This document shows positions 19,701 through 44,101 of a stretch of 44,101 nt of DNA, piece by piece. This DNA comes from a virus. The notes under the pieces were generated by a model. It made no database searches, was not told where the DNA came from, and saw only the letters and a list, made by a program, of their open reading frames with translations. Position 1 is the stretch's first letter. The number at the start of each line of letters is the position of its first letter. The position numbers and the translations under genes are program-made. Location: positions 1 through 44,101 of IMG/VR virus record IMGVR_UViG_3300031578_000105. One strand, given 5' to 3'.

Positions 19701-22700
19701 CCTGCATTAGTTACTGTTGCTACTGTTGGTGTTGCTGAAGACCAAGGTGTTGTTGGATGAGCTGTTGCCGAACCTGTTAATGTTGTTGTTAAACCAATAC
19801 AAACTATTGCTGTGCCTGTAATAGTTGGAAGTGGATTTACAGTTAGATTTAAAGTTGCAGTATTACAACCCACAATATTAGTAACATTAGTTTGAGCAGT
19901 AGTATATGTTAAACCAGTACCTAAAGGTAAAGGCCAAATATAAGAATCTCCATCACAAATAGAAGTAGTTACATCTCCATTAGTTGTTGGAGGATCTATA
20001 CTAATATTCATTGTTGTCGTTAGCCCACATAACCCTGAATTTGCTGTAAAGGTATAAGGTGTTGTTCCTAAAATTGCGGTTGATATTGTTGTTGGGTTCC
20101 ATGTTCCTGGAATACCATTGGTGGAAGTTGCAGGTAATGCTGGTGCTACACTATTTTGACACAATGGCCCAATAGGTATAAATGGAGGTAGATCTGGTGC
20201 AATTCCTGTATTATCCCAAACACAAGTAGTGTTATTAAAGACAAAAGTATCCCAACAATTAACTACTGGTGGCTGTACCGGTTGAGTCCCTGTTACATCA
20301 TAAACACAAGATGTTGCATTCCAAGTAGCTATTTCATAGCAAGCTATTATTGGAGGAGGACCTTGTACAATACAAGAACCATCATCAAATGTAGCTGCAG
20401 GGTCAAAGTTACAAGCAGTAGGATCAATACAACCAGGTATACCGTAAATACAAGAACGATCATCACAAGTTGCAGCAGGATCATAGTTAGTAGCAGCAGG
20501 ATCAGTACAACCATCAATACAACAAGTACCATCATCACAAGTTGCAAATGGATTATAATTAGATGCCAATGGATTTTGACAACAACCAGCTGTTATAGGA
20601 AAAGGAGGGCCACTACAAGGATTACAGGTATAAGTACAAGAACCATCATCACAAGTTGCAGCAGGATTATAATTAGATGCTGTAGGATCAGTACAGCCGT
20701 CAATACAACAAGAACCATCATCTACAATACTGGTGCCATTATAAGGAGGAAGATAAGCTTCTGGTGGAAAAGGTACGTAATTAGATGCAGTAGGATCAGT
20801 ACAACCTAACCAAGTACAAGAGTTATCACCACACATTATTGAAGGATTGTAGTTAGATGCAGTTGGTTCCATACATCCATATGAAAGTGGAATAGTATAA
20901 GTTGTTGCAATGCAACCTGTTATATTATCTACAACCGTAATTATTGGTGGATATACACAATTAATAAATATAATTACGTCTCCTTCATTATATGTATTAC
21001 CATTATATGATGCAGTTACTGTTACTTGACTAACTGGTAAAGGTATACTATTATATATCATACTATAAGTACCTATAGTATAATATCCTCCATTTACTAT
21101 ACCAAGGGTAGGATCAGTTGCTGTTAAAGTAGTTGATGTTAGTTGTTGAACATAAGCACTATCACAGTAATCACAAGAACCATCATCCGTATTAGCTGCA
21201 GGATTGTAGTTACTAGCTAGTGGATCAGTACAACCTAGTATTTCAGGTACACAACAAGCTAGACAAGGACATGTTGCAGCAGGATCATAGTTAGTTGCTG
21301 AAGCATCCATACAACCGTATACACATACAATTAGTTCAACAGTAATTACACTAGTACAACCTGCAGCATCTGTAACTGTTAATATATATGTACCATCAGC
21401 AAGATTACTTATAGATGCTGTAGTTGCTGTATATCCATTTGGTCCTGTCCAAGAGTAAATATAAGGTGGTGTTATAGGATTTGTTATAGTTACTGTAATA
21501 CTTCCATCATTTGCACCACTAGAAGTTACATTAATATGTGATTCAGTAATAATAGGATATATAATACAATAGTTACAAGTTCCATCATCTATATTTGCAA
21601 ATGCATTATAGTTAGTTGCAAGAGGATCAGTACATCCAGGAACAAGTGGACAATCACCTGTAGTAAATGAATCACAAATAGGAGAATATATAATATCATC
21701 TAAACATCCATTTATATCTGGATTAGGATTCATATAAGCTCTCCAGTAATATGTTGTAAATGGTGCTAAGTTTGTTGGTGTTTCTGTTATTACAGTATTA
21801 ACAACACCATTTCCAGGATATGAAGTTAATAATCCTGGTACCATTAGATTTGTTATTTGTCCACCAGTAGTTATATTACCTATTGTTAGATTAGAATTAG
21901 TTCCATATATAACACCCCAAGTACCTGTTGTTCCATTAGTTATTGATGTTTGTAAATTTCCTAATGAAGTATATGCATACTTTAGATTAAATTGACAACT
22001 ACTAATACATATAGCTGAAAAACATTCTATAATAGGGCATGCAGAAGGTGTAGTAAACATTTGTATTGCATTCCAACACGAAATTAATGTACCACAAGTA
22101 GCTCTTACTTGAAATTCATATTCTGTATCATAATTAAGACCTGTAATAATATAATATAAATTAGCAGTATTAACTGTTGTCCATGTAGTAGTACCCACAA
22201 TTCTATACCTTAACTCATATGTTACTGTTGTTTCTGTTGTATTTGTTTCTGACCAAGTAACATATGCCTTAAATGTATTTATACCTATATCAGTTTTTAT
22301 TGTAACATATGAATTACCTGGTGCATTACATGTACATTGTGGAGCTGGTGTTATACATACTGGATCTGGGCATAGTTCTGTAACTGTTATTAAAAGTCTT
22401 TGTTGAGCACAATTTCCTGATGTAGTAAAACATTCACATAGTTGTGCAGTATGTTCTGTATTAATTGATGCATTAGAAATTACATGAGTATATCGTCCAA
22501 TTTCATTTGTTTTACCAACATCTTTACCATCTAAATATATTTGATAATCTTTTATTGCTGTACCATTTTGATTTACTACATCAAAAATTAAACATTCATT
22601 ATCTTTACATTCATATAGAGATAATGAAAAAAATGAATTTAAATCAGAAGCAAAAGTACTTTCTGTAAAAGTATCAGATGTATAATTACCACTCCACCCA

Positions 22701-25700
22701 TAGTTATCTAAACCTCCATATCCAAAAGGATGTAGAGTTACAGTATTTACTTCATTCCAATATAGATTTGATCCTGGTAATTCAATAGCCGCTATTGATG
22801 TATTTGCCATTAAATTTATTGGTGCTGTACCTGTTAAAAATGTACCGTCTTTTGTAGGTCTGTTACCACTTGATATTGCACCAATTGCATGTAATGGGAA
22901 TGCTCTTTGAGGTTGGTATATGTTTACTGGTCTACTTGTGTATAAAAAACAATTTAAAGAATGATTACATGATTTAGAGATCCATGTATTATATGTATCT
23001 ATATATTTATTATAATCTGCTTTCCATGCTGGAGATATATTACCCCCAATAGTAGCAACATTCCAATCGTTAGCACTTCCATTTGTATTTCCTCTATTAT
23101 GATAGCATGCATAATTTATATCATTAGATACACTTGCAAAAGGTACTTCTGTTTCATCTGCAAAACAAATTATTAATACTTGTTCTGTTGTTGCAACTGG
23201 TGGAGGACCATTCCAAGTTACAGTAGTACCTTGTGGAACAAGACCATCAGGACCAATCCATGTTGTACATGTTGTACCATTTATATAATTATCATAAAAT
23301 GGATTGCTACAATCACTATTTTGAAACCAATCTTTTATTTTTAACGTATAACTCATGTCATAAGCAGTATTACCATGACACCCACATTCACCAGTTGCTC
23401 CATTTGATGGAGCATAACATCCACCATAACAACTATTAGGTGGATTACAAACAGGATCAGCATTATAAGGATCTGGAAGAGCAGTATTACAATTAGTTCC
23501 TGCATTATTAAATTGTCCTGTAATTGCAGTTGTTGCCCAATCTAACCATCTTTCACCTGCTACAATAGTATGGTAATGAGAACCAACAAAACCTTGAGTA
23601 GCAAGAGTTTGCATCCATAATTCTGTTGCAGTATATATATCTATAGTAGGATTTAATCCTAATGATGTTCCATCATAAAAGAAATATACTGTAAGATTGC
23701 CTTTTTCTATTAGTCCGCATAAAGGATCTACCCAGCTTGGATAGGTTCCTGCTTCAGGTAATATAGTTGGATCTATAGGTTTATATACTGTTCTGTCAAT
23801 TTTAAAACCTAAATATTCTTTTTCTTTTTTATCTTCCCAAAAACATAAATATTTTTTTGTAACTATTTTATCTAATGTAGTTTCACACGGACTAGTCATT
23901 CCAAATCTCATTGCTTGAAACTTTTTATAAACACTATCAGAAAATATTGCTTCTATTTCTATTCTTTTAATATCTGAGTCAGTAAGAAATTCAATAGGAT
24001 TATATTCTCCATAAGCTACATCACAAGGTGGTGGATATATACATGAACCATCATCACATGTTACACTTGAATTATAATTTATAGCTGTTGAGTCTGTACA
24101 ACCACATGGTAATTGACAATCTATTATTGGTGTATATTCACATTTACCTGCATATACTTGTACAAGATATTCTAAACAATTACCAGGAAATGTTAGTGTT
24201 GTACCTGCTATAATATAAGATATACTATTATTAACAGCTTGAAAATTAAGTTCTCCATTTGCATCTGTAGTTAATAAAGTTGAAGGTATATTAATTGGTA
24301 TACCATTTAAATCTGTAGATATTGGATAATTAGGTAATGGTAAACCAGTAGATATATCTATTACTTGAAGAGTAACACAATTTTCATTTTGACAAGGAAC
24401 AGTATTAGTAACTGCATTTGATAATTGATAATTTATAACATTATTAAACATACCTGGCCAGTCAGGTATAGTATTAGGAACAGATAAACCTGGTAAAGAA
24501 GTGGCTACTTGACTTGAAATTTGAAATTGTGTACCAGGAAAATTAAATGGATATGTTACATTAAATGCATCTAACTTACCATAATTAAGTGCATATGGGT
24601 TAGCCGTTTCTAATCTTCTTATATTAGGATTCATTCCAGGTGGTGCATTCCAAACAGGAATACATGTAGTAATATCATTACACCATAAAGAACTTGCAGG
24701 AGCCGAACCAGTAGTCCAATCAGAAAAATAATTTACTGCATTAACTGGGAACATACCAGTACCATCTGTACTATGTATAGCTGCTGATACATGTAATGCA
24801 TAACTATTATGTTGAGGTTGGTTGGATGAAGTATTATTAAACAAAGATGGCCATAAAACAACATCAACACCTCCTGATGCTATATGTGATGCAAGTAGTG
24901 CTGTTGCAGTAATATGGTCATTTTTCCAATTTTCTGTATTACCATCTATTATAGATGACTCAATACCTTCACATTGACCATTAAACTCTATACCATTAGG
25001 ATATGTAATTCCATTTACTGTAATATTTGCAACTGCCTGTTTTCCATGATAAGTACAAGCAGATTCATCATTAAATATTAAAATTAAAATTTTATCACTA
25101 GAATTAGGAATAGGTGGTAAACCTAATGATGTAATAGACGCACCTGTATTTGTAGTGCTAGTTGTTTGTCCTACAGGCATATGAGAATAAAAGTCATCTA
25201 CAGTACTATCATTATGTGACCATAAATGAATATCTCCAACAATACCAGTTGCACTATTACCCGTTCCCCAGTCTTCCCATGCAGTAGTATCAGCAGATCT
25301 ATTAGCTGTTATTGGACCACCACCATTTAGATTAACACCACCATTATTTATTATTCCGTTAAAGCAAGATGATACCCAATCTAACCATCTAGCACCACCA
25401 CCTCCAATTATTGTATGATAATCTTGTCCAGTAAATGTAAATGGAGCAAGCCATTGTTTAAATGCAGCGTATTGATTTTGAATATCAACTTGATCATAAT
25501 TATGTCCTTTATAATAAACATATATTTTATCAAAGTTTAATGTAGTAGGACTTTGACCATAACAACCTTGATACCAATCTGGTGGATCTTCAGATGTAGA
25601 AGCATCATACGTTTCTACTATACCAATATCACAAATCCAATGATATGTTTGAGTATTCCAAGTAGTTGGATTTGATCCTGTTGCGTTTATTGTATATGTA

Positions 25701-25918
25701 TAACTTAATCCATTATTAACATATGTATCATATAAAGCATAATTAGTTTGAAAAAGTCCATCAGCTACTATAATATGACTAACTTTATCTCCCCAAGCTA
25801 ATAAAATTTCTAATGAACCATCTGCTTGACATGTTATATCATGATTAAAATGGCATTTAGAACTTGTAGTATTCAAAGATGCATAATTAGGATAACAGAA
25901 TTCTGGAGATAGTGCCAT
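16787..25918 (-). CDS. Giant modular adhesin (3043 aa): vWA-like, FN3, SprB-type, BIG2, LRR and DDGSC repeats
   Basis: By far the largest gene in the window. Approximate modules: 125-480 and 735-1110, two homologous vWA-like blocks (shared YHTI...RWLDW phrase; strands DKILILIFNDES and EQVLIICFADET); 1196-1293, FN3; about 1455-1530, SprB-type repeat (GANDGSITVTI, LADGTYILTVTDAAGC); about 2030-2100, BIG2-type Ig domain (TVATVTNAGVVTGVSAGTS); about 2180-2340, two more SprB-type repeats; about 2366-2550 and 2683-2981, two leucine-rich-repeat cassettes. Seventeen Cys-rich units of the GCTDPTATNYNP...DDGSC type separate modules from residue 605 to the C-terminus. There is no signal peptide and no type IX secretion C-terminal domain, so it is presumably assembled on the virion. 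These repeats are typical of flavobacterial surface and gliding adhesins. It probably acts as a host-binding fibre; which module binds is unknown. Confidence 0.85.
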   Translation of the reverse strand: MALSPEFCYPNYASLNTTSSKCHFNHDITCQADGSLEILLAWGDKVSHIIVADGLFQTNYALYDTYVNNGLSYTYTINATGSNPTTWNTQTYHWICDIGIVETYDASTSEDPPDWYQGCYGQSPTTLNFDKIYVYYKGHNYDQVDIQNQYAAFKQWLAPFTFTGQDYHTIIGGGGARWLDWVSSCFNGIINNGGVNLNGGGPITANRSADTTAWEDWGTGNSATGIVGDIHLWSHNDSTVDDFYSHMPVGQTTSTTNTGASITSLGLPPIPNSSDKILILIFNDESACTYHGKQAVANITVNGITYPNGIEFNGQCEGIESSIIDGNTENWKNDHITATALLASHIASGGVDVVLWPSLFNNTSSNQPQHNSYALHVSAAIHSTDGTGMFPVNAVNYFSDWTTGSAPASSLWCNDITTCIPVWNAPPGMNPNIRRLETANPYALNYGKLDAFNVTYPFNFPGTQFQISSQVATSLPGLSVPNTIPDWPGMFNNVINYQLSNAVTNTVPCQNENCVTLQVIDISTGLPLPNYPISTDLNGIPINIPSTLLTTDANGELNFQAVNNSISYIIAGTTLTFPGNCLEYLVQVYAGKCEYTPIIDCQLPCGCTDSTAINYNSSVTCDDGSCIYPPPCDVAYGEYNPIEFLTDSDIKRIEIEAIFSDSVYKKFQAMRFGMTSPCETTLDKIVTKKYLCFWEDKKEKEYLGFKIDRTVYKPIDPTILPEAGTYPSWVDPLCGLIEKGNLTVYFFYDGTSLGLNPTIDIYTATELWMQTLATQGFVGSHYHTIVAGERWLDWATTAITGQFNNAGTNCNTALPDPYNADPVCNPPNSCYGGCYAPSNGATGECGCHGNTAYDMSYTLKIKDWFQNSDCSNPFYDNYINGTTCTTWIGPDGLVPQGTTVTWNGPPPVATTEQVLIICFADETEVPFASVSNDINYACYHNRGNTNGSANDWNVATIGGNISPAWKADYNKYIDTYNTWISKSCNHSLNCFLYTSRPVNIYQPQRAFPLHAIGAISSGNRPTKDGTFLTGTAPINLMANTSIAAIELPGSNLYWNEVNTVTLHPFGYGGLDNYGWSGNYTSDTFTESTFASDLNSFFSLSLYECKDNECLIFDVVNQNGTAIKDYQIYLDGKDVGKTNEIGRYTHVISNASINTEHTAQLCECFTTSGNCAQQRLLITVTELCPDPVCITPAPQCTCNAPGNSYVTIKTDIGINTFKAYVTWSETNTTETTVTYELRYRIVGTTTWTTVNTANLYYIITGLNYDTEYEFQVRATCGTLISCWNAIQMFTTPSACPIIECFSAICISSCQFNLKYAYTSLGNLQTSITNGTTGTWGVIYGTNSNLTIGNITTGGQITNLMVPGLLTSYPGNGVVNTVITETPTNLAPFTTYYWRAYMNPNPDINGCLDDIIYSPICDSFTTGDCPLVPGCTDPLATNYNAFANIDDGTCNYCIIYPIITESHINVTSSGANDGSITVTITNPITPPYIYSWTGPNGYTATTASISNLADGTYILTVTDAAGCTSVITVELIVCVYGCMDASATNYDPAATCPCLACCVPEILGCTDPLASNYNPAANTDDGSCDYCDSAYVQQLTSTTLTATDPTLGIVNGGYYTIGTYSMIYNSIPLPVSQVTVTASYNGNTYNEGDVIIFINCVYPPIITVVDNITGCIATTYTIPLSYGCMEPTASNYNPSIMCGDNSCTWLGCTDPTASNYVPFPPEAYLPPYNGTSIVDDGSCCIDGCTDPTASNYNPAATCDDGSCTYTCNPCSGPPFPITAGCCQNPLASNYNPFATCDDGTCCIDGCTDPAATNYDPAATCDDRSCIYGIPGCIDPTACNFDPAATFDDGSCIVQGPPPIIACYEIATWNATSCVYDVTGTQPVQPPVVNCWDTFVFNNTTCVWDNTGIAPDLPPFIPIGPLCQNSVAPALPATSTNGIPGTWNPTTISTAILGTTPYTFTANSGLCGLTTTMNISIDPPTTNGDVTTSICDGDSYIWPLPLGTGLTYTTAQTNVTNIVGCNTATLNLTVNPLPTITGTAIVCIGLTTTLTGSATAHPTTPWSSATPTVATVTNAGVVTGVSAGTSVITYMNSNNCITTVTITVTLVITPDFTFYTDVCYQYPLSLPTTSNNGITGTWSPAYNNTALPGTSTTYTFTPDAGQCATTQTSTITILPCDGSNSCYGSTVQVNNHVSCFGAFDGSATAYVVSSFGNDYWLWSDGQTSSTAVGLAAGTYTYTIYSNPGTVGDPTTSVCTTTGSVTIIQPTQLSISLEVRDATPGNANGAVLATVTGGTAPYTYVWSDALAQTTNPATGLSLGPIAVTVTDCNGCTVTDSAFVLINIVGGCTDPLSPNYSFAANTDDGSCYIPLSGLTYIPDANFRAALVATTTITTNDWVDYNGASSTSGEYVLTTVLNTVTSLDVNSQNIADLTGIEAFTALTYLICYQNQLTSLNLSQNTALTTLYCWDNQLTSLDVSQNTALTTLHCGYNQLTSLDVRNGNNTNFSNFYAYGNPNLTCISVDDATWSTANWTDPNYFAFDSQHFFSNNCNPLCGCMDPAACNYDPLATYDDGSCNTVYGCTDATACNYVVAATCDDGSCTYPDGCTDVTACNYNPLATCDDGSCSGLLGCTNVTANNYNSSATCDDGSCTYDPISFTYGCGDPCYANYDPSPTIIHDINLCSGIAYCTIPDINFRNALINHSCWYMGGTPISTCNITAGDFVDANNDGNFDQIEICKVNTITYLTDLFSKNISSLQGIECFTALKYLDCYDNQITSVDLSQNTALIRVLLNGNQLTSLNLSGLTALTKFWCDNNQLQSLDVSTNTALTEFICSFNQLTSLNVSQNTALFVFWCHVNQLQSLDLSQNTALALFICSENQLTSLDVQYNTGILYLVCNDNQITSLDVSYCTSMTQLICKNNQLTYLDVRNGNNYNFVPQAYWSGIPFKSTNNPNLTCIHVDDVAYSTANWTVANGQINSQQYFSNNCGVGCTDPTACNYDVTAITDDGSCCYTWGCTDPTATNQDPLACCDDGSCTYIVNTIWTKFNKL
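16975..17880 (-). repeat. Leucine-rich-repeat cassette 2 of the giant adhesin
   Basis: It encodes an N-cap (TIPDINFRNALINHSC), an EF-like phrase DANNDGNFD, then about ten LRR units of the LTSLDVSQNTAL kind with a C(N/D)x-NQ consensus turn. It closes with NPNLTCIHVDDVAYSTANWT and a FSNNC cap. The complete cap-to-cap form matches domains of secreted flavobacterial proteins, suggesting transfer of an intact domain. Confidence 0.9.
18270..18822 (-). repeat. Leucine-rich-repeat cassette 1 of the giant adhesin
   Basis: A shorter copy of the same cassette: N-cap YIPDANFRAALVAT, capping phrase NIADLTGIEAFTALTYL, three to four LRR units (LTSLNLSQNTALTTLYC type) and the closing phrase NPNLTCISVDDATWSTANWT with FSNNC. 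It differs from cassette 2 mainly in the number of LRR units, as expected from unit gain or loss between tandem repeats. Confidence 0.9.
18897..19370 (-). repeat. Two SprB-type repeats in the giant adhesin
   Basis: In translation order the first unit has VSCFGAFDGSATAYV, a WSDGQTSS turn and LAAGTYTYTI. The second has GNANGAVLATVTGGTAPYTYVW and then VTVTDCNGCTV. This is the consensus of SprB repeats, known from the flavobacterial gliding adhesin SprB. Confidence 0.8.
21315..21545 (-). repeat. Isolated SprB-type repeat in the giant adhesin
   Basis: It encodes INVTSSGANDGSITVTI, then YIYSWTGPNGYTATTAS and LADGTYILTVTDAAGC, a complete SprB-type unit, flanked on both sides by Cys-rich DDGSC-type units. 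Confidence 0.82.
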
Positions 25919-33211: not shown

Positions 33212-35992
33212 TTATTTTTTCTTTTCTTTTCTATCTTTTTTATCCTTTTTCTTTTTAGTTTCTATATCATATTTATTCTTATTTTCACGTGCAATTTCAA
33301 GATTTGTAGTAGCAACATCACGTTGTGCAGTTATTTTTTCACGTTCTACTGCTAGTTTATCACGTGTTACAGCATTTTTATTTATTAAATCTTCTCTTTT
33401 AAAATCCATTTGCTCTCTATATTGGTCTCTTTTTTGCATATCATTCATAGCATCACGGAAATCACTTTCTTGATTTTGATTAACATCACTCTGTGCACCA
33501 AATCCAGCAGCTCTAATTTCAGCAACCATAAGATCTTTTCTTCTATCTGCTTCAGCTTCTTGTTGTTTAAAGTCACGTTCTGCTTGTTTTTCTGCAGCTT
33601 GAGCTTTAAGTTGTTGCTCTTGCATTTGTTGTTGAGTTTGCATTTCTTGTTTTTTAGCATTTTCTTGTTTAACTTCAGCATCTTTAAGTATGTCTGAAAC
33701 TTCTGCAATAGAGTCTGCTTTAACAATACTTCCAAGATCATATATAGATGCTCCTGATGTATTATTTTGAAGTGCTAATTGTTTTAACTGATCAAGAGTA
33801 GCTCTATGATTTGTTTTAGTTGTACAAAAAATATTAAAATCTCTCATTAATAATTTAGTTCCATTAATAACAAAATTAACTTTTTCTGCTTCAGAATTAA
33901 TATATGAAAGTCTTACACTTGGATTAGTACTATTATAATATTGTGCAAGATCTGTTCTCATTTGATGAACACGTGGCATAAGTTGATCTGAATGATTTAC
34001 AAAATAAATTTCAGTTTGTGCATATGATTGGTTCATTGCATTAATTACTCCTGTTGCTGTTTCTTGTGCAATAGGTGAACCTAATCTTTGTGGATTAACA
34101 CCAATTGCTTCAAAAGCTTGTTGTTTAAAGTGATTAGCTAATTGTATTCTAGACATTAATCTACTTGATTGTTCAAGGTTTAATGTTTGATAATGATTAA
34201 AGTTTGTAGCATTTTCTGTATTAGTAATAGATGTATCTAATGGCATCATACCAAAATCTTTCATTGCTACATATGCTTTAGCAAGATTATTCTTACCCCA
34301 ATCTTCACCCATTGAATGACGTGGTAAAGCATTTTGATCAAACATAATAATAGTACCTAATTCATCTACTAAAATATCTGCTATCTGGTTATTTACCATA
34401 TTGTATCCAACTTGATACGGTTTCATTAAATCAACTAAAGAAGTTGACCTTGTGTTTCTATCAGAAAATACTCGCCCTTCAACTGGAAGTTTACAACCAT
34501 ATAAGTTGTTATCTCCTTTAAATTGAAATGGAATTCTCCCTGGTCTCTTTCTATTTATACCTAAATATACTGGATTAAAACCATCAGTTTCATTTTGTTT
34601 CCAATACGAAGGGGCATTAGGACCTATTTTAATACCACCCCAAACTTCATTAATCCATATCCAATCTATATGTTCTCCTTGTACTAAATTATCTTTTGTT
34701 TTTTCTTTAAATAAATTTGTATTATAAATAGGCTTTTCAGTTACTGTATATATTTCATCAATTATTTCTTGTATTATATCACCTTCTTCTGTAATTCTCG
34801 TAAGATGTCCTACTTTTCTTTGTGTTTTCCAATATACAGTTGTAACTCTCATCATATCTCCATCACCCCAACTTGCTATATCTTCACTATCACCAAGTAT
34901 CCAGTTTACAATATCACCATTTGAAGAATGATCATTACCTTTTACACTCATGTATTGTCTATATTGTAATGAAGGAGATCCAACATTCCATTTATGTGAT
35001 TTACTAGCATCATAATAAGATCCATCATTTTGTTGACCTCCTATCATATATCTTGCTGAAATAGCTGGATATATATTTTGTAAAGATAACATTTGTTCCT
35101 CATTCATTAAGTAACCATACTTATCAATAACATCTGCTGGAGACATCATATCACATTTACCTACAAAATTAGAATCAGATATATATCTTGAATCAGGAGA
35201 TTTATGATAAAATGTTAATACAGGATTCCATAATTCTATATCATAATCATCTTCCATCATTTTAAAATGCCAAAACTCTCTATCTGCAACAAGCATATCT
35301 CTAAATCCTCTTTCTTCTAGTTCGTTCATTTTAAATCTTTCTTCATCAACTACTAACTGATGAGTTGCCCATTCTTCAACTAAACTTCTATAATCTTTTG
35401 AAAAAAAATCTTCTATTTCAGGTAATGATTTTATGTTATCTTGTGAAAGTTGTTCTTTTGCTTCATCTGAATTAGGATCTAGTCCTGCTTCTAACATTTT
35501 CATAAGAATCTTTGATTCAGCATCTGCTAATAAATTTTCTTCTATTTGTTTTCTTTTTTGTTCAAGCATTTCATTGTAGGAAAGATCATCTACTGCTCTA
35601 AATTGAACTTTATGAAATCTTTTTGTAAATTCTCCTGTTAGTACATTAATAACATTTGGGATAATAGGATAAAATTTTAGTTCTAGTGCAGAACTATCTT
35701 CTTTAGTTAAAATATCCATTATATCTTTATACTCATTATCTTCTTCAATGATATAATCAGTTTTATCTATAACACCTTTTGCAAGTTTATAATTCTTCAA
35801 TAATTTTCTTGCATTTTTTTGGAGGTACTCTATACCTCTCATTTCAATCCAGTCTAAATTCCATGCTGCCCATTCATCATCTTTTTCCTTAGCTTTAATA
35901 AATTGTAAAGGTTGTGTAAGATTGCTATTAGTTAATTCGTGATTTTTAATTTTAGCACCATTCTTTAATTGGTAAGCATTATATAATTGCAT
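33212..35992 (-). CDS. Portal protein
   Basis: A 926-aa protein in the portal slot between TerL and scaffold/MCP. The N-terminal 760 residues are mixed alpha/beta in the style of podovirus portals (FYPIIPNVINVLTGEFTKR near residue 110; MKPYQVGYNMVNNQIADIL near residue 520; QQAFEAIGVNPQRLG near residue 630). The last 160 residues (from about ILKDAEVKQENAKKQ) are a long Gln/Lys/Glu coiled coil ending in a Lys-rich tail, which could form the portal barrel inside the head and touch DNA. The portal ring is the DNA entry and exit pore. It starts about a dozen bases after the 45-aa ORF and ends in an A-rich gap without a convincing terminator. Confidence 0.85.
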   Translation of the reverse strand: MQLYNAYQLKNGAKIKNHELTNSNLTQPLQFIKAKEKDDEWAAWNLDWIEMRGIEYLQKNARKLLKNYKLAKGVIDKTDYIIEEDNEYKDIMDILTKEDSSALELKFYPIIPNVINVLTGEFTKRFHKVQFRAVDDLSYNEMLEQKRKQIEENLLADAESKILMKMLEAGLDPNSDEAKEQLSQDNIKSLPEIEDFFSKDYRSLVEEWATHQLVVDEERFKMNELEERGFRDMLVADREFWHFKMMEDDYDIELWNPVLTFYHKSPDSRYISDSNFVGKCDMMSPADVIDKYGYLMNEEQMLSLQNIYPAISARYMIGGQQNDGSYYDASKSHKWNVGSPSLQYRQYMSVKGNDHSSNGDIVNWILGDSEDIASWGDGDMMRVTTVYWKTQRKVGHLTRITEEGDIIQEIIDEIYTVTEKPIYNTNLFKEKTKDNLVQGEHIDWIWINEVWGGIKIGPNAPSYWKQNETDGFNPVYLGINRKRPGRIPFQFKGDNNLYGCKLPVEGRVFSDRNTRSTSLVDLMKPYQVGYNMVNNQIADILVDELGTIIMFDQNALPRHSMGEDWGKNNLAKAYVAMKDFGMMPLDTSITNTENATNFNHYQTLNLEQSSRLMSRIQLANHFKQQAFEAIGVNPQRLGSPIAQETATGVINAMNQSYAQTEIYFVNHSDQLMPRVHQMRTDLAQYYNSTNPSVRLSYINSEAEKVNFVINGTKLLMRDFNIFCTTKTNHRATLDQLKQLALQNNTSGASIYDLGSIVKADSIAEVSDILKDAEVKQENAKKQEMQTQQQMQEQQLKAQAAEKQAERDFKQQEAEADRRKDLMVAEIRAAGFGAQSDVNQNQESDFRDAMNDMQKRDQYREQMDFKREDLINKNAVTRDKLAVEREKITAQRDVATTNLEIARENKNKYDIETKKKKDKKDRKEKKK

Positions 35993-36004: not shown

Positions 36005-36142
36005 TTAATTTTTTATAAAATATTCTGAGTCAACATAATCAACATAGTCAAGATATTCAATATATATATAATTAATATTATCCATGTCAAATATAGTATT
36101 TATATCAAATGTTGTATCTGTTGTCCAATAATTTTCTATCAT
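36005..36142 (-). CDS. Small acidic protein between TerL and portal (45 aa)
   Basis: An ATG overlapping the TerL stop (TAATG at 36142) opens a 45-codon frame ending in TAA at 36005-36007. The product begins MIENYWTTDTTFDINTIFD and is very acidic and Tyr-rich, with the near-repeats YLDYVDYVD toward the end and only two basic residues. It fills almost the whole gap between TerL and portal. The overlap matches other junctions in this operon, which supports translation. Function unknown; an acidic peptide here could be a DNA mimic or terminase/portal partner, but nothing proves this. Confidence 0.5.
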   Translation of the reverse strand: MIENYWTTDTTFDINTIFDMDNINYIYIEYLDYVDYVDSEYFIKN

Positions 36143-38331
36143 TATTTAAAATTTTTATATGGTGATTTTTTTATTTTACTTTTATATCTTGATTTTTTAT
36201 TTCCAATATTCCTAAATGGTCCCATATTTAATTTATACAAATTTTGGGACTTATCCAAGTTATTTGAATCTTGATTTTCTTTTCTTTTACTATATCCTCT
36301 GTTTGCTTGTTGTATTTTAACAAAAGCAACAAGTGCTGCAAACGCAACTAATCTATCCACATTAAGTCCAGGGTAATATTGTAACATTTCAGTAAGTAAC
36401 ATTTTGTCTGGTATTCTTTCTACACCAAATGTTTGTGATAACACTTCTCCATTTTTATCTACTTCTTCATCTATTGCTTCTCTAATATATTCAATTGCAT
36501 AAGAAATAAGATGACTCTTAAATAAATTACCAGTATTTTTCCATCCATATTCTTGAAATACATTGTTATTAGAACCTAACTCTTTAAGAAATAAAATTTG
36601 TTGTTTGGGAACTAAATATTTTTGCTTTCTCTTTGCAATCATATGTTGTATAAATAATGATATATTATTTTCTACTAGTGTCCATGCTTTATACCATTCA
36701 ATAATCAATTCTAATTGTTCATGTGTTTTATTTATATCATCATATCTACCACACCATGATGCAACTATTTTTTCTTTTTCAATAAATGTTTCTGTTTCTC
36801 CAGTTTTATCTGTTCTTGTAACTTCACATGCGTTTTTATATACAAATATACTACACAATGAATCTGATGTTGTTGTTTTGCCTTCTGACACGGGGTCAAT
36901 AGATGCATAGTATGTTCCAAATTCAAGATTTTTAATTGGTCTTTCCCATACTACTAGTACACCACTTTTATCTTCATCTTTCTTTTTTACTGGAAAATTT
37001 AATATAGGTAATTTTATACTCTTAGTTGCTGTAATACCTTCCTCATCTCTGTCAAGTTCTAAAAACTCATAACTATATTCTTTATTATCAATTCTTTTTA
37101 ATTGTTTAGATATTAATGCTTGTGGAAATACAGCAGCTTTTCTATATGCAAACGCCTCAGCAATATTTATAGGTTTTTGAGATATTCTTAATTGATATTG
37201 TTCAGCTGATAAATCTTTTTGCCATTGTATTCTTTCTTGATATACAGCTTTTAATGATTCTTTAACTTGTGAGTTTCCATAGTTATCAATAAATGGAGGC
37301 ATAGACCATTGTTCAGGAATAAATAATCCAGCTATACCAATAGTTCCTTTGTCATCCATTAGATCTGTTTCTACAGCATATATATCATTTCCTTGTGGAT
37401 TAAGTATAAATTCTTTTAAAGGATTACATTGTGTAAGATCACCTACAGATCCTGCTGCAATAAACATTCCTGTTGTAATTAGACCAGATGTCATTGCAGG
37501 TCTAATATATTCATATGTTTGATCCATTTTTGGAGCAATACCCGCTTCTTCATGAAAAAAGTAAGTACATGGTCCACCTACTCCAGTTGTTGCATTTTTT
37601 TCAAATGATGCACCTTGTATTTTTGACATTAGACCTCTATTAGTCTTCCTATTATTTATTCTAACTTCAATCTTTTGTTCCCATAATAAAACCTTTTCAG
37701 GATTACTTGGTCTATACCAAGCAGTATGTTCATTAAGAAATGTTTTATATTCATCTAAAAATTTCCATGAACCTTTATCATTTATATAATCTTTAAGGGA
37801 AGCACCTATTTTACATATAGAACCTTCTTCAAACCAGTAAGTGTTTATGATCTTACCCATGTGAAAATAAGAAGAAGCAATCTGCCTCTTTTTTAATATA
37901 ACTGCATGCTTATGGTTTAATTCTGCTAATATTTCGTATAGTGCCATATGATATTGAGCATCTCTGACTTTAGCAAATCCATACTTTTTTTCTTCTTTAT
38001 CAAATATAGGTAAGAAGTTTAACCACATGTAATAATCTCTAGTTAGATACCACGTGTTTTTTTTTCCTATATATATAACTCCTTCTCTACATTTTTCTTT
38101 TTGATTATTCCAGTATTCAATATAGTCTTTAGTTTGAAATGGTTTGTCACAATAAAATCCTTGTCTATTAAATGTAACTGCTTGTTCATTAAATAATAAT
38201 GCGGTCTCATCAAACTCATATTGACCAGGTTCTTTAAAGAGTATAGTAATATACTTTATAAAGTCTTCTTTTGTTTTAAACTCTTTATATTCCCATTTAC
38301 CATTATTGTATGTAGGTATAACCTTATACAC
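36142..38331 (-). CDS. terL: Terminase large subunit
   Basis: The 729-aa packaging motor. The ATPase half has a variant Walker A in VILKKRQIASSYFHMG (about residues 140-155), Arg-first as in many large terminases, and a Walker B/catalytic Glu in TYFFHEEAG (about 257). The nuclease half has the first metal-binding Asp in YYASIDPVSEG (about 477) and a later Asp in LNVDRLVAFAALVAF near residue 680. It cuts concatemers and pumps DNA through the portal. The start is GTG at 38331: the codon before it is TAA, so no upstream start is possible, and the next Met is far inside. It overlaps the GroES gene end by 8 bases. The C-terminus is Lys/Arg-rich. Confidence 0.92.
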   Translation of the reverse strand: MYKVIPTYNNGKWEYKEFKTKEDFIKYITILFKEPGQYEFDETALLFNEQAVTFNRQGFYCDKPFQTKDYIEYWNNQKEKCREGVIYIGKKNTWYLTRDYYMWLNFLPIFDKEEKKYGFAKVRDAQYHMALYEILAELNHKHAVILKKRQIASSYFHMGKIINTYWFEEGSICKIGASLKDYINDKGSWKFLDEYKTFLNEHTAWYRPSNPEKVLLWEQKIEVRINNRKTNRGLMSKIQGASFEKNATTGVGGPCTYFFHEEAGIAPKMDQTYEYIRPAMTSGLITTGMFIAAGSVGDLTQCNPLKEFILNPQGNDIYAVETDLMDDKGTIGIAGLFIPEQWSMPPFIDNYGNSQVKESLKAVYQERIQWQKDLSAEQYQLRISQKPINIAEAFAYRKAAVFPQALISKQLKRIDNKEYSYEFLELDRDEEGITATKSIKLPILNFPVKKKDEDKSGVLVVWERPIKNLEFGTYYASIDPVSEGKTTTSDSLCSIFVYKNACEVTRTDKTGETETFIEKEKIVASWCGRYDDINKTHEQLELIIEWYKAWTLVENNISLFIQHMIAKRKQKYLVPKQQILFLKELGSNNNVFQEYGWKNTGNLFKSHLISYAIEYIREAIDEEVDKNGEVLSQTFGVERIPDKMLLTEMLQYYPGLNVDRLVAFAALVAFVKIQQANRGYSKRKENQDSNNLDKSQNLYKLNMGPFRNIGNKKSRYKSKIKKSPYKNFK

Positions 38332-39987: not shown

Positions 39988-40308
39988 TTATTCTTTATAT
40001 CCTGTTTGTTTTTTGAATTGTTCTTCTAGTTCATTAGAAAATATAGCGTTCCATTGTCCTAAAGGACAAGATGAAGATAATGCTCTAAGTTTAAATCCTA
40101 AACTACAACCACAATCAGCACAACAAGGTTGAGTTCCTGGTGCAGCACATTTTTTACCTGTTAAATCAAGTGAGATACACTGTTGACAAATTAACCATCT
40201 TTCATTAGCAACTTTTTCAACATCTTCAGATTTAAAGATTTTATTTTTAACACCTTCATATATTTGATCAATATTTTTTATTGCTGATAATAATTTAATT
40301 ATTTTCAT
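39988..40308 (-). CDS. Small Cys-rich zinc-ribbon protein
   Basis: A 106-aa protein. The centre has many Cys in ribbon-like spacing: ICQQC, a KKC step, then CCADCGC and a later CPLGQW, enough for two zinc sites. The helical N-terminus (IKNIDQIYEGVKNKIF) and charged C-terminus flank it. Small proteins with this arrangement occur in many large phages, but I know of no proven role. It overlaps the HU/IHF-like gene end by 14 bases and is followed closely by the nuclease gene, so the three are probably co-expressed. Confidence 0.65.
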   Translation of the reverse strand: MKIIKLLSAIKNIDQIYEGVKNKIFKSEDVEKVANERWLICQQCISLDLTGKKCAAPGTQPCCADCGCSLGFKLRALSSSCPLGQWNAIFSNELEEQFKKQTGYKE

Positions 40309-40654
40309 TTTTAAACTTTTTTTTATTTATTATTTCTTCATCTAATCTAATTAATACTTTTTCAAACATATTAATTTTTTCTTTCACAGGAATGTGTTTA
40401 TCATATCCTTTATAAGTATTCTTTTGGATATTACCTAAAATATCTTTATTTCTCTTAATACTTTTTTCTAATCTAGTTTTTCTTAATGAAAAAGTTCCTA
40501 AGTTGGGTAAGTATATTTTATTTGATTCAAGATTAGATAAAGCTTTCCTTACTTTATCATAATAAAAAGATATTAAGTTAGTTACTAATTCTGGATGAGC
40601 ATTACATTCTTTTGCAATGTCAGGATAAAAATCTTTATACTTCTTCGGTTTCAA
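40295..40654 (-). CDS. HU/IHF-family DNA-bending protein
   Basis: A 119-aa protein. Residues about 5-60 follow the HU/IHF fold: two helices (FYPDIAKECNAHPELVTNLI and the following DKVRKALSNLE) and the hallmark turn IYLPNLGTFSLRKTR, matching the L-x-x-F/L-G-x-F/L of the family. An extended basic C-terminus follows. IHF-like genes near packaging genes are characteristic of crAss-like phages. The start is a TTG at 40654: TAG lies 6 bases upstream in frame, no ATG occurs in the domain, and AGGAA lies just before it. It overlaps the previous gene by 20 bases. Likely role: DNA condensation or packaging. Confidence 0.85.
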   Translation of the reverse strand: MKPKKYKDFYPDIAKECNAHPELVTNLISFYYDKVRKALSNLESNKIYLPNLGTFSLRKTRLEKSIKRNKDILGNIQKNTYKGYDKHIPVKEKINMFEKVLIRLDEEIINKKKFKNENN

Positions 40655-41003
40655 TTCCTAATAGTTTGTAATCTAATAATATAGTACCTTTTGTTTGTAT
40701 TTCTATTTTTGGATTAAGTTTAATATTTTTTTTATTAACACCATTCTTTACTATCAATTCTTTCTTAGTTGCTTTAGTAATTGCATTTCTACATGACTGT
40801 GCACTTTTAAATATTTTTTTATCTGATATGATATAACAGAATCTAGTAAGTTCTACATTTTCTAATTTTGCAAGTTCAGCTAAACATAATAAATCTGATA
40901 AGCTTATTTGTATTTCATTAAGGAAACAATGAGTAAGGATCTGATATTTTATAATATCGTCCTTACTCATTTTTACCTTTTTTTCTACTTTCTTTACTAT
41001 CAT
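40635..41003 (-). CDS. Helical conserved protein, possible winged-helix regulator
   Basis: A 122-aa protein, helical and Lys-rich, with the phrase SLSDLLCLAELAKLENVELTRFC and then a segment SAQSCRNAITKATKKELIVKNG, which reads like a recognition helix followed by a wing. Proteins of this type precede the IHF-like gene in crAss-like phages. The ATG at 41003 forms a TAATG overlap with the stop of the lysin-like gene and is preferred over the TTG at 41012. A DNA-binding role is inferred from this pattern only. Confidence 0.55.
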   Translation of the reverse strand: MIVKKVEKKVKMSKDDIIKYQILTHCFLNEIQISLSDLLCLAELAKLENVELTRFCYIISDKKIFKSAQSCRNAITKATKKELIVKNGVNKKNIKLNPKIEIQTKGTILLDYKLLGIETEEV

Positions 41004-41626
41004 TATATCCAAGTTTTTGTTTTATTAGTTTCATTACTAGTAATTAATGTATATGTAAAATTATTACTCCATGTATCTTTTGCTTTTTTACATATTTTTA
41101 TAAACTTTGTCCAATCATCATTACTAGCAATTACTTGACATCCAGCTGACCATTTATCTATGTTTGTAGATTTATTACCAGCTTTTTTTGTAGCTCTATG
41201 AATATTAATACCAAATAAACCAGTATCAGTTTTTTCTGTATTAAGATTATATATATCATCTCTGTTATTATCTCTATACACTGTTACTGGGTTCTGTTGA
41301 CATAAAGCTTCATATTTACCTTGATGTTTACCAATTCTATAAGATTTTGGATACTGACCAGGTTTTAATATAGCAACACCTTTGTCATTCATTACATTTT
41401 TTACCCAATGCGTTCCAGGATCTGTAGTACAGTCAAACTCATGATATTGCCATTCACCATTTATTTTATATGATAGTGTAATAGTATCATCAAATCTATT
41501 TGTTACCATATTCTCTGTTTTAGAGTTTCTGATACCAATTATATTTAAGTTATAATCTCCATTTATAAAATACTTATATCCTTTTGATATTAGAGCTCTC
41601 TCTAATATCTCTCTTCCGTATTTCAT
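41003..41626 (-). CDS. L,D-transpeptidase-like cell wall enzyme, candidate lysin
   Basis: A 207-aa protein. The C-terminal half has FGINIHRA (about residue 140) and, after a spacer, KWSAGCQVI (about 160). The His...Ser-x-Gly-Cys pattern is that of YkuD-type L,D-transpeptidases, where Cys is the nucleophile. It lacks a signal peptide, so delivery would need a holin or the virion. It most probably acts on peptidoglycan as a lysin or an exolysin; no other lysin is visible in the window. The N-terminal half (STDP-like CTTDPGTHWVKN) is a less clear, beta-rich part of the same domain. TAATG overlaps on both sides tie it to its neighbours. Confidence 0.7.
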   Translation of the reverse strand: MKYGREILERALISKGYKYFINGDYNLNIIGIRNSKTENMVTNRFDDTITLSYKINGEWQYHEFDCTTDPGTHWVKNVMNDKGVAILKPGQYPKSYRIGKHQGKYEALCQQNPVTVYRDNNRDDIYNLNTEKTDTGLFGINIHRATKKAGNKSTNIDKWSAGCQVIASNDDWTKFIKICKKAKDTWSNNFTYTLITSNETNKTKTWI

Positions 41627-41967
41627 TAATCAGCACGTTTTAAAGTTCTTTTTGGAGGTGCAATATTTTGTTCAGCATTCCAGTCTTCTGCAGCTTGTTT
41701 AACTGCTTCATTTCTTGCATTATTAATTTCTTCTGGTGAACCTGCTTCAGGACCAGCCATTATTTGTGCAAGATACATTTGAGCCTGTACTCTTTCAGCA
41801 CGTGTTTTTTCAATATCTCTTAATAGTTCTTCATATTCTTTTTGAACTTTAAGATCTTTAATGTGATCTTGATAATAAGCTGTTATTTCAGCTCTTCTTT
41901 TACTTAATTCTTCTTTAGATAATTGTACATCTTCTTGAGAAGAATTTTCATTGGTTTCTTTTGTCAT
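41626..41967 (-). CDS. Coiled-coil protein of unknown function
   Basis: A 113-aa protein, nearly all helical and charged (LSKRRAEITAYYQDHIKDLK, EYEELLRDIEKTRAERVQAQ), reading as a coiled coil over residues about 18-75. It ends in a basic tail (PPKRTLKRAD). It is the first gene after the promoter-like element at 41998-42012 and overlaps the next gene as TAATG. It may be a small virion or cargo protein. No family recognised. Confidence 0.6.
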   Translation of the reverse strand: MTKETNENSSQEDVQLSKEELSKRRAEITAYYQDHIKDLKVQKEYEELLRDIEKTRAERVQAQMYLAQIMAGPEAGSPEEINNARNEAVKQAAEDWNAEQNIAPPKRTLKRAD

Positions 41968-41997: not shown

Positions 41998-42012
41998 TAT
42001 ATTACAAAGATA
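41998..42012 (-). promoter_or_regulatory. Candidate leftward promoter (TATCTTTG TAATATA)
   Basis: The minus strand reads TATCTTTGTAATATA, identical over 15 bases to the element at 11086-11100 and an exact match to the Bacteroidetes TAnnTTTG -7 box. It lies about 31-45 bases before the ATG at 41967 and would drive the head and packaging operon. Confidence 0.55.
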
Positions 42013-42060
42013 CAAAAAAAGTTTAAATAAAAAAGGTTTATGTGTTTTTTTTTATTACCT

Positions 42061-42487: not shown

Positions 42488-42696
42488 TAATTTATTTTTT
42501 AAGTTAGTATATCTTTCTTTTAGGAAGATGGCATTTTAACTCATCCCCCCTATACATTCAATATACAAAAATACCCCCACCCTACCAACTAAAAAATTAT
42601 ATATGTTACGTGTACGTTACCTCCTACTGTTCTGCTCCCCAGCTTAAAATTGGCACGGGGTGTTCCCGTACCATAACTAAATACATATTAAAAATT
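42488..42696. promoter_or_regulatory. Divergent intergenic region between leftward and rightward genes
   Basis: These 209 bases separate the leftward block from the rightward genes and should hold promoters for both. On the minus strand 42558-42573 reads TATTTTTGTATATTGA, matching TAnnTTTG plus the TATATT extension. Two C-runs flank it (42545-42550 and 42574-42578). A G+C-rich hairpin with one mismatch occupies 42652-42672, just ahead of the rightward ATG at 42697. TTTAACTCATCC at 42535-42546 recurs at 43050-43061. Confidence 0.45.
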
Positions 42697-43023
42697 ATGT
42701 CAGTATTTTTTCACAAACTCGTAGAGGGTTCAAACACTATCATCTGTAAAGATGCACCAGCAAACCTTGTAGAAGTAACCGTTGAGACTTCCAAAGGTCC
42801 AGTAACACACTTCATCAGAAAAGGCACCGTTCAATATGGTATATACTGCCCTGTTGACAGTGACGGTAAATCCATTGACGCGCGTTCTTGGGGTCTTAAA
42901 AAAGACCAAGAACTGCAAGGCTTGACAATGGGTAGCTTTTGCCTTGACCAAGAGGCTATGAAAACACAGCCTAAGGATGCAGAACCTATCTACACCACAT
43001 TAAGATGGGTGGTAGCATCTTAA
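42697..43023 (+). CDS. Rightward 108-aa protein of unknown function
   Basis: The first rightward gene. ATG at 42697 is chosen over the further upstream in-frame start at 42610 because the region before 42697 contains the G+C-rich hairpin and reads like a leader. The product begins MSVFFHKLVEGSNTIICKD, is mixed beta, and contains HFIRKGTVQYGIYCPV and the end TLRWVVAS. No membrane segment and no family recognised. Its G+C content is near 45% in the two lines I counted, well above the roughly 30% of the leftward genes, and codons such as GCC, ACC and GAC are frequent. This suggests strong expression or recent transfer. It stands alone between a divergent junction and a terminator, as an early gene might. 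Confidence 0.6.
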   Translation: MSVFFHKLVEGSNTIICKDAPANLVEVTVETSKGPVTHFIRKGTVQYGIYCPVDSDGKSIDARSWGLKKDQELQGLTMGSFCLDQEAMKTQPKDAEPIYTTLRWVVAS

Positions 43024-43031
43024 TAATGCAA

Positions 43032-43053
43032 TAAAGACACATTAGTGTCTTTA
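43032..43053 (+). terminator. Terminator hairpin after the 108-aa gene
   Basis: A 9-bp perfect stem (43032-43040 with 43045-43053, loop ATTA) lies 9 bases past the stop. The T-run is only TTT. A second small hairpin, CATCC-GTAA-GGATG at 43057-43070 with a GNRA-type loop, follows directly. Confidence 0.65.
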
Positions 43054-43153
43054 ACTCATCCGTAAGGATGTACGCAGTTTATCTTACTTAATGTAGCTCT
43101 CAGTTTTCACTTGATTGTGTTTAAACTCATCTACTCTCACTGTAAGACTATAT

Positions 43154-43200
43154 ATGGGCAATAACTATGCAATCTACTACAGATTATAGTTATTGTCCAT
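43154..43200 (+). other. Long hairpin, candidate structured RNA or origin element
   Basis: A 15-bp stem (43154-43168 with 43186-43200, one G-U pair) is topped, after a 2-base bulge, by a further perfect 5-bp stem (43171-43175 with 43181-43185, loop ACTAC). No T tract follows, so it is not a plain terminator. No ORF runs through it. Confidence 0.6.
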
Positions 43201-43208
43201 TATATCAC

Positions 43209-43239
43209 TAGGTTATTGTCTTTTGTACAAAAAAACCTA
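43209..43239. other. Hairpin around palindrome TTTTGTACAAAA
   Basis: A 12-base perfect palindrome (43221-43232) is flanked by arms TAGGTT (43209-43214) and AACCTA (43234-43239). This could be a dimeric-protein binding site or a cruciform. Confidence 0.5.
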
Positions 43240-43272
43240 AGAAATTATTTAATTGTAATTGAAATTAATTAA

Positions 43273-43295
43273 TTGTGTGTGTTAAGTTGTGTGTG
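43273..43295. repeat. Two TTGTGTGTG direct repeats
   Basis: Nine identical bases at 43273-43281 and 43287-43295, spaced 14 bases start to start, immediately before the CCACAT array. Confidence 0.65.
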
Positions 43296-43305
43296 AGTAG
43301 TCATT

Positions 43306-43344
43306 TACCCACATATTACCACATTTAACCACATTCTTGCACAA
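43306..43344. repeat. Iteron-like CCACAT array with 10-base period
   Basis: CCACAT occurs at 43309-43314, 43319-43324 and 43329-43334, exactly 10 bases apart, each preceded by an A/T-rich spacer. A degenerate GCACAA sits at 43339-43344. A period of about one helical turn places all copies on one DNA face, as for iterons or operators. Confidence 0.6.
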
Positions 43345-43350
43345 CTAATC

Positions 43351-43419
43351 ATAGTTATATAATATATAGCTATCATGAGTAGTTCAAGAGTAACTATAGC
43401 ACAATACTGCATTACTCTT
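43351..43419 (+). other. Two further hairpins before the small-gene pair
   Basis: Stem 43351-43359 with 43365-43373 (9 bp, one G-U), then stem 43386-43393 with 43412-43419 (8 bp perfect), whose loop holds a 3-bp inner stem. A 22-codon ORF at 43375-43443 overlaps the second stem and is probably not a gene. The rest of 43024-43519 is AT-rich with nothing else recognised. Confidence 0.5.
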
Positions 43420-43500
43420 ACTCTCTATGTTCTTTCTCTATAGGATGAGCATATTAGTAACCAGAATAGTGTAAAACTGCTCTTTTTATTTAACCTAAAC

Positions 43501-43519
43501 ATTAACCAAACAAAAACAA
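43501..43519 (+). promoter_or_regulatory. Conserved 19-base leader directly before the 69-aa gene
   Basis: ATTAACCAAACAAAAACAA abuts the ATG at 43520 and is repeated identically at 43857-43875. It lacks a Shine-Dalgarno site. Unstructured A-rich leaders are used for strong initiation in Bacteroidetes, so this is probably a translation signal. Confidence 0.6.
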
Positions 43520-43729
43520 ATGAATAAAATTATTGAAAAATACTACCTTAAACCAAACAGCAAATTAGTCAAATATAACATTAGAACTAAAGGTGTTGAC
43601 TGTTGGTTTCACGCTCCCTTAAAAGAAGCAAAAGGAAATATAGAACAACACAGATGTATAGACTTCCAGGATTACAACCAACACTTAATTCACGAAGACT
43701 TTAAATGTAAAGAAAATTACATATTCTAA
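43520..43729 (+). CDS. Small paralogous protein 1 (69 aa)
   Basis: It begins MNKIIEKYYLKPNSKLVKYN and has the motif GVDCWF near residue 25 and HRCIDFQDY near residue 44. The same two motifs, in the same order and following MDKIIEKY, occur in the partial gene at 43881, so the two form a tandem paralogous pair. Charged, soluble, two conserved Cys, no signal peptide. The identical 19-base leader supports real translation. Small rightward genes of this kind in phages are often early host-directed proteins, but that is inference; no family recognised. Confidence 0.65.
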   Translation: MNKIIEKYYLKPNSKLVKYNIRTKGVDCWFHAPLKEAKGNIEQHRCIDFQDYNQHLIHEDFKCKENYIF

Positions 43730-43856: not shown

Positions 43857-43875
43857 ATTAACCAAACAAAAACAA
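43857..43875 (+). promoter_or_regulatory. Second copy of the 19-base leader
   Basis: ATTAACCAAACAAAAACAA again, here five bases before the ATG at 43881. Identity to 43501-43519 while the genes behind have diverged suggests the leader itself is under selection, or a recent duplication of the upstream end. Confidence 0.6.
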
Positions 43876-43880
43876 TTTAT

Positions 43881-44101
43881 ATGGATAAAATTATTGAAAA
43901 GTATTTTATATTTCCAGGTTCTGTATTAGTACACTATACCATTGGAACAAATGGTGTAGATTGTTGGTTTGATTCTGAACAATGGAGAAATCATAGATGT
44001 TTATCTTTTGAAGATTTTGAGTTAATCAAACCTTTAAAAAAAGTAGTTACATTTGACTCACCTTACAGTTTTCAACTTAATGGTGATATGGCTCAACAAT
44101 T
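43881..44101 (+). CDS. Small paralogous protein 2, cut by window edge
   Basis: The frame is open from ATG at 43881 to the window end (73 codons seen). It begins MDKIIEKYFIFPGSVLVHYT and contains GVDCWFDSEQWRNHRCLSFE, matching protein 1 in the MxKIIEKY, S-x-LV-x-Y, GVDCWF and HRC blocks. It is longer at the C-terminus than protein 1 and has not yet ended. Function unknown; a family of tandem copies may continue beyond the window. Confidence 0.65.
   Translation, partial: MDKIIEKYFIFPGSVLVHYTIGTNGVDCWFDSEQWRNHRCLSFEDFELIKPLKKVVTFDSPYSFQLNGDMAQQ

Follow-up and report, generated by a model that had tools for sequence, protein, structure and literature searches.

A conserved single-copy element at the head of the replication block of crAss-like phages that may join an operator array, a phage-specific promoter and an exchangeable structured leader

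Early phage promoters that are controlled by operators and have a structured 5′ leader stand first in an early operon and combine a box array and an A/T core with a hairpin at the presumed 5′ end. Replication origins such as lambda ori, plasmid iteron origins and bacterial oriC carry short direct repeats at helical-turn spacing and an A/T stretch, with genes for an initiator, DnaB and primase nearby. In coliphage N4, early promoters are used by an injected virion RNA polymerase, and the promoter hairpins near the presumed start are short and sequence-specific. According to a review (PMC10136315), the mode of replication of crAss-like phages is unknown, and an injected polymerase transcribes their early and replication modules in a programme likened to that of N4.

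Here, we describe an element at positions 43268–43464 of a viral sequence of 44,101 nucleotides (the window, meaning the whole stretch analyzed). It shares all the above features of the operator-controlled early promoters but differs from them in having no recognised −35/−10 or Bacteroidota TAnnTTTG signal and in having a leader hairpin that is swapped for unrelated sequence between phages. With the iteron and DnaA-box origins it shares the phased repeats, the A/T stretch and the neighbouring replication genes, and a protein with the fold of DnaA domain IV is found in relatives of the window; in contrast to these origins, its boxes are CCAC and TGTGTGTTA rather than TTATNCACA, its A/T stretch is unexceptional, and an origin role is putative. 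We know of no counterpart of its exchangeable hairpin and its conserved block B in such origins. Our preferred reading, to which we give an even chance, is that 43268–43464 is the cis-control locus of the rightward early/replication block, comprising an operator array, a phage-specific promoter and a structured leader RNA.

The window is positions 1–44,101 of IMG/VR record IMGVR_UViG_3300031578_000105, a viral fragment. Its terminase (36142–38331, minus strand), portal (33212–35992, minus strand) and head proteins matched PHROG families, and because a tblastn search with the terminase matched crAss-like phages of Bacteroides, Flavobacterium and Cellulophaga (approximately 24–26% identity), the virus is assigned to the crAss-like phages. 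The phage is probably marine, judging from its crAss-like relatives and the habitat of the cultured members rather than from the sample label. Two giant ORFs on the minus strand, 858–7736 (2292 aa) and 16787–25918 (3043 aa), may encode virion or transcription proteins that are injected together with the genome, which we presume from general knowledge of crAss-like phages. A stretch upstream of the leftward gene 41626–41967 (42000–42056, minus strand), containing TATCTTTG, is kept in many relatives (for example, 92% over 53 nt in L065) and resembles a host-type promoter that would serve the late block.

For comparison, 80 closer relatives of the window were taken from IMG/VR; the material consisted of metagenomic contigs and was analyzed as sequence only. 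Simple counts are inflated by kinship among the phages, and the tests took one representative per cluster; fold z-scores, obtained with 50–100 shuffles, are rough. Searches with the neighbouring small proteins and a DNA search of annotated phages found no relatives, and the first 50 kb of the record of the cultured relative phi14:2 had neither the CCAC array nor block B.

A preliminary description of the window had presented 43024–43519 as a noncoding region packed with hairpins and iteron-like repeats. No gene fills the region, and its main features are all present as described. The terminase block runs leftward, the strand switch lies at 42488–42696, and small rightward genes follow; the region, which had been placed beside the divergent switch, heads the replication block, and the switch itself lies further left. 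The relatives split the region into a fast-evolving, folded left part (43024–43268) and a right part that is conserved in sequence (43268–43464).

The left part follows a small plus-strand gene (42697–43023; 108 aa, SVFFHK.. family); in the window this gene stands ahead of the element, and a homologue occupies the same place in many relatives. Directly 3′ of its stop codon, a terminator-like hairpin was found on the plus strand (43033–43052; AAAGACAC-ATTA-GTGTCTTT, stem 43033–43040/43045–43052), but it lacks a T-run, and the terminator scan called no intrinsic terminator. The GTAA-loop hairpin of the GNRA type (CATCC-GTAA-GGATG; 43057–43070, plus strand) was present in the window and was not seen in the closest relatives, L004 and L006. 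The 47-base plus-strand hairpin with a nested stem (P0; 43154–43200) was also recovered, with 14 of 15 arm positions complementary; at its position, the stem is kept and the sequence changed in L134, L004 and L006, and the plus strand folded better than the minus strand in 12 P0 hairpins (composition-corrected mean zdiff −1.04 ± 0.28). The results showed that 43024–43245 folds to −58 kcal/mol compared with −35.4 ± 3.7 kcal/mol in shuffles (z −6.07; 0 of 200 as good), and that the stretch from the gene stop to block A has z < −2 in 36 of 40 non-redundant relatives (mean −3.66). Hairpins of unrelated sequence directly follow the preceding gene in most relatives, and several have a second hairpin in the left part, beginning with ACTCACTCA. 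The left part would be the 3′ end of the preceding gene's transcript, carrying the terminator-like hairpin and a second variable hairpin.

The right part, 43268–43464, is a conserved, single-copy element present in more than 70 viral contigs. On the plus strand, the upstream boxes of its block A are the paired repeats TTGTGTGTG (43273–43281 and 43287–43295, together 43273–43295; conserved core TGTGTGTTA), for which the chance expectation is 0.06. There follow three CCACAT boxes (43308–43334, plus strand) at 43309, 43319 and 43329, confirming the period of exactly 10 bases described for them; they form a conserved phased array of putative protein-binding sites. Block A also has an A/T-rich box on the plus strand (43358–43372; TATAATATATAGCTA) of the form TATA..ATATAGCTA, ending in TATAGCTA, which could be a promoter core or an unwinding element. 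The consensus from 42 non-redundant relatives is tT.TGTGtGTta-N17-gaggTC-N6-CCACAt.ttACCACtT..taCCACa ... ttaaCAC .. taAtaaa.aATATAGCTA, and block A was found at 15 or more loci with a constant orientation relative to the terminase. The box did not stand out in A/T content, 16–32% of windows of the genome being equally A/T-rich.

Within the window alone, the CCACAT pair is weak (two matches with up to two mismatches, 0.42 expected; 9 of 100 shuffles reach that), and the evidence for the array is decisive because it is conserved across relatives. The spacing from CCAC to CCAC is exactly 10 nt in 59 of 64 successive intervals. Two or more CCAC at 9–12 nt occurred in 34 of the 42 non-redundant relatives versus 0.01 in shuffles, and three in a row in 25 of 42 versus 0 in shuffles. 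The triple array has one occurrence, at the element, in the window and in the records G005 and G003; in G009, the third box is degenerate. Three conserved CCAC boxes at exactly 10 nt are the kind of arrangement that characterises iterons, in which several direct repeats recur roughly every one or two turns of the helix. The iteron idea is supported to the extent of a conserved, 10-nt-phased box array beside an A/T box; in relatives, DNA-binding proteins of the initiator type are encoded further downstream.

Between blocks A and B lies an exchangeable insert (43369–43435, plus strand), which is one long covarying hairpin (P1) in most relatives and is weakly folded in the window. Its 63 distinct copies fell into 30 unrelated sequence clusters, and most are a single long hairpin starting at GCTA, with arms such as GCTATAAC.AGAGT/ACTCT.GTTATAG, GCTATCATGAG/CTCATGTATAG and GCTATAAGTAC/GTACTTATAG. 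Because the insert cannot be aligned, an alignment-free arm-swap test was used in place of a covariance model, and each cluster's 5′ arm was paired either with the 3′ arm of the same cluster or with that of a different one. Across 25 unrelated clusters, the pairing was −21.7 kcal/mol with the own partner versus −15.7 kcal/mol with another (0 of 5000 permutations as good), and 2 of 20000 permutations were as good when the invariant first six bases were left out. Covariation had been suggested as a check, and the insert arms covaried across the 25 unrelated clusters tested; a lack of conserved stems or repeats in relatives, which was to have spoken against the initial proposal, was not observed. 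In 30 copies of the insert, the plus strand folded better than the minus strand (composition-corrected mean zdiff −0.74), and G-U pairs in the variable hairpins numbered 108 of 925 on the plus strand versus 55 of 857 on the minus strand, as expected of a rightward RNA. The window's own 43365–43480 folded no better than chance (z −0.26).

The insert is also mosaic. L109 and L143 have an identical insert between flanks that are 75% alike, and the same was seen in L004/L137, L018/L123 and L017/L121. In L156, the space between the two blocks holds a short ORF (MKTMFEAFKLNGIEYYYHKGK...) instead of the hairpin; in L062, L041 and L077, an ORF lies almost directly behind the TATAGCTA box. In lineages lacking the hairpin (L062, L009, L156, L041 and L077), a start codon follows 0 to approximately 20 nt past this box, putting it in the position expected of a promoter core.

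Block B (43427–43464, plus strand; TATGTTCTTTCTCTATAGGATGAGCATATTAGTAACC, core CTCTATAGGAT) follows the pattern CTCTCTATAGGATAAGAG..AGTAACC, also written CTCTCTATAGGATAAGAG..AGTAACCGCAAYATT, and contains a possible stem (43427–43433/43447–43453) with weak covariation support (p 0.024). An exact-pattern search returned 77 contigs, three of them clearly false. The core occurred exactly once in 16 of 20 related records of 77–122 kb and never in the reversed control. A presence of block B in bacterial or archaeal genomes was rejected, as one match in 257 billion bases was judged to be chance. In Rfam 15, nothing in the window reached a gathering score, and the matches in three relatives were sub-threshold by a wide margin. 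Block B CTCTCTATAGG resembles the core CTCACTATAGG of promoters of T7-type single-subunit RNA polymerases but has one copy per genome; a T7-type reading was set aside on this ground and because no polymerase was found, the search with PF00940 giving no match in 12 records, as did its control search, which was likewise silent.

The window reaches only 0.6 kb into the rightward block, and the candidate trans-acting factors come from relatives. Two of these, G005 (114,213 bases) and G003 (119,271 bases), have end repeats of approximately 130–150 bases and look complete; in both and in G009, the element sits at the junction of a leftward block of approximately 90 kb and a rightward block of approximately 25 kb. 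The rightward block of relatives encodes an SF2 helicase, a DnaB-like helicase, a primase, a DNA polymerase and other proteins. A small HTH_36 protein, which resembles initiation proteins of phage replication, was found in 15 of 20 records, and its gene lies 0.7–4.1 kb downstream of the element on the same strand wherever positions were compared. A DnaA-domain-IV protein of 181 aa was found in 12 of 20 records, in many of them 6–9.5 kb downstream. It matched Pfam PF08299 with values down to 2e-10, four past the cut-off, and the best structural matches of its AlphaFold model (pLDDT 72) were 1j1v and 3pvp (prob 0.99–1.00, E 0.09–0.2), with 1j1v, DnaA domain IV on a DnaA box, the best of all (prob 1.00, E 0.09). 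By its sequence, this protein is possibly a phage replication initiator or a competitor of host DnaA. Its gene overlaps the next gene by approximately 70 nt (L168:6163–6705, L160:8116–8658, L086:5155–5700 and L130:3082–3633), and a second conserved stretch 7 kb downstream in G005 and G009, taken to be noncoding, was actually this gene. It is absent from G003, the complete record nearest the window, and the window ends before its place. In the L006 lineage, of which G003 is the complete member, the two TGTG boxes are degenerate (CAGGTGTTACATGATGAGTGGG) and the CCAC array is intact, and a joint loss of the TGTG boxes and the DnaA-domain-IV gene is possible.

In the window, the first ORF of the rightward block (43520–43729, plus strand; 69 aa) is preceded by an A-rich 19-nt leader, ATTAACCAAACAAAAACAA (43501–43519, plus strand), of which an exact second copy lies at 43857–43875. 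The ORF is similar to the one starting at 43881, and from their sequences the two are a duplicated gene with its leader. A stretch of approximately 326 nt without a 70-aa ATG ORF is 68–75% conserved in relatives (G005 rotated −5846..−5520; G009 −8715..−8389; G003 −3707..−3372) and may be a gene that uses another start codon, as do the TTG-started ORFs 40295–40654 and 40635–41012 of the window.

In our preferred reading, one or more phage-encoded initiator-type helix-turn-helix proteins would bind one face of the DNA at the phased CCAC boxes and the inverted TGTGTGTTA boxes. The HTH_36 protein is the best candidate binder of block A, with the DnaA-domain-IV protein a further candidate where it is encoded. 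Binding would control the opening of the adjacent TATA..TATAGCTA box, a putative phage-specific promoter core without the TAnnTTTG signal, and the anatomy suggests that rightward transcription would start at or just before GCTA. The RNA would begin with a leader whose shape is kept and whose sequence is exchanged between phages, as the covariation, strand bias and mosaicism indicate, and would continue through the sequence-conserved block B into the replication block. Three observations favour a promoter, namely start codons that immediately follow the box, a hairpin that starts there, and the signal of a plus-strand RNA. No sigma-70 promoter was found on the plus strand of the element, nor was TAnnTTTG at −7 with an upstream TTTG on this strand in the window, G005, G003 or G009; full host-type promoters were hardly found anywhere, and hence this negative result says little. 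Counting against this reading, the left part also favours the plus strand, so that transcription begun further left could continue across block A, and both the weak fold of the window's own insert (z −0.26) and the weak covariation of block B (p 0.024) point the same way.

A replication origin, which we consider possible but on the unlikely side, would use the phased CCAC boxes as initiator sites (iterons or DnaA-like boxes); the TATA..TATAGCTA box would melt, DnaB would be loaded, and the hairpins would serve as primer RNA or structured single strands. The single-copy array and A/T box adjoining the replication block would suit such a role, as would the DnaA-domain-IV-fold protein and the initiator-like HTH_36 protein of relatives. 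The GC skew, proposed earlier as a means of locating the origin, does flip here, with a local minimum approximately 850 nt or less from block B (−839, +157 and −801 nt). However, skew tracks the direction of the genes: those on the minority strand retain a positive coding skew. The arms are also very unequal (25 versus approximately 90 kb), and the flip, though real, is explained by coding-strand skew and was rejected as origin evidence. Moreover, the A/T box is ordinary for the genome, and TTATNCACA boxes are not conserved: with up to one mismatch they were scattered without conserved positions, the window having two one-mismatch matches, TTACCCACA and TTAACCACA. The absence of the DnaA-domain-IV gene from the nearest complete relative also argues against an origin, and some lineages have a start codon immediately after the box, which suits a promoter better. 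Of the original suggestion of an origin or a cluster of regulatory RNAs, the RNA part is borne out by covarying, plus-strand-favoured hairpins in a single-copy conserved locus, and the origin as such is a candidate. Promoter and origin may coincide at one element.

A promoter for the injected crAss-like virion RNA polymerase, whose recognition would be aided by hairpins as in phage N4, has in our judgment a low probability. The element resembles the N4 early promoters in the reported injected polymerase (PMC10136315), the early block and the hairpins near the presumed start, and it is a single copy at the head of a block, lacks a host-type promoter and has shape-conserved hairpins on either side. 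However, N4 hairpins are short and sequence-conserved, whereas those of the element are long and variable, with a strand bias and G-U asymmetry that suggest RNA rather than DNA hairpins, and no such crAss-like promoter was found in a literature search of limited reach. A low probability applies also to the idea that the insert hairpin is an exchangeable RNA specificity module, expressed first from a virion polymerase start and acting, for example, in replication control or exclusion between co-infecting phages, by analogy with plasmid incompatibility RNAs; it draws on the 30 unrelated clusters in one frame and on the same insert occurring on different flanks. That the region amounts to no more than a terminator plus intergenic hairpins, typical of AT-rich phage DNA and not under selection, is barely credible: the left part is fast-evolving and L004 and L006 do not keep its GNRA hairpin, but the phased boxes are conserved, block B is single-copy in more than 70 contigs, and the arms covary. 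Conservation contradicts this explanation for 43268–43464; for individual stems of 43024–43150, it may hold.

A hairpin that is conserved in shape and swapped in sequence between constant flanks is unusual in itself, suggesting selection on RNA form together with frequent exchange. The locus concerns little-understood viruses, a large family of marine crAss-like phages, and as a single-copy locus with defined boxes across this large marine branch, it offers one precise place at which replication and early transcription can be tested.
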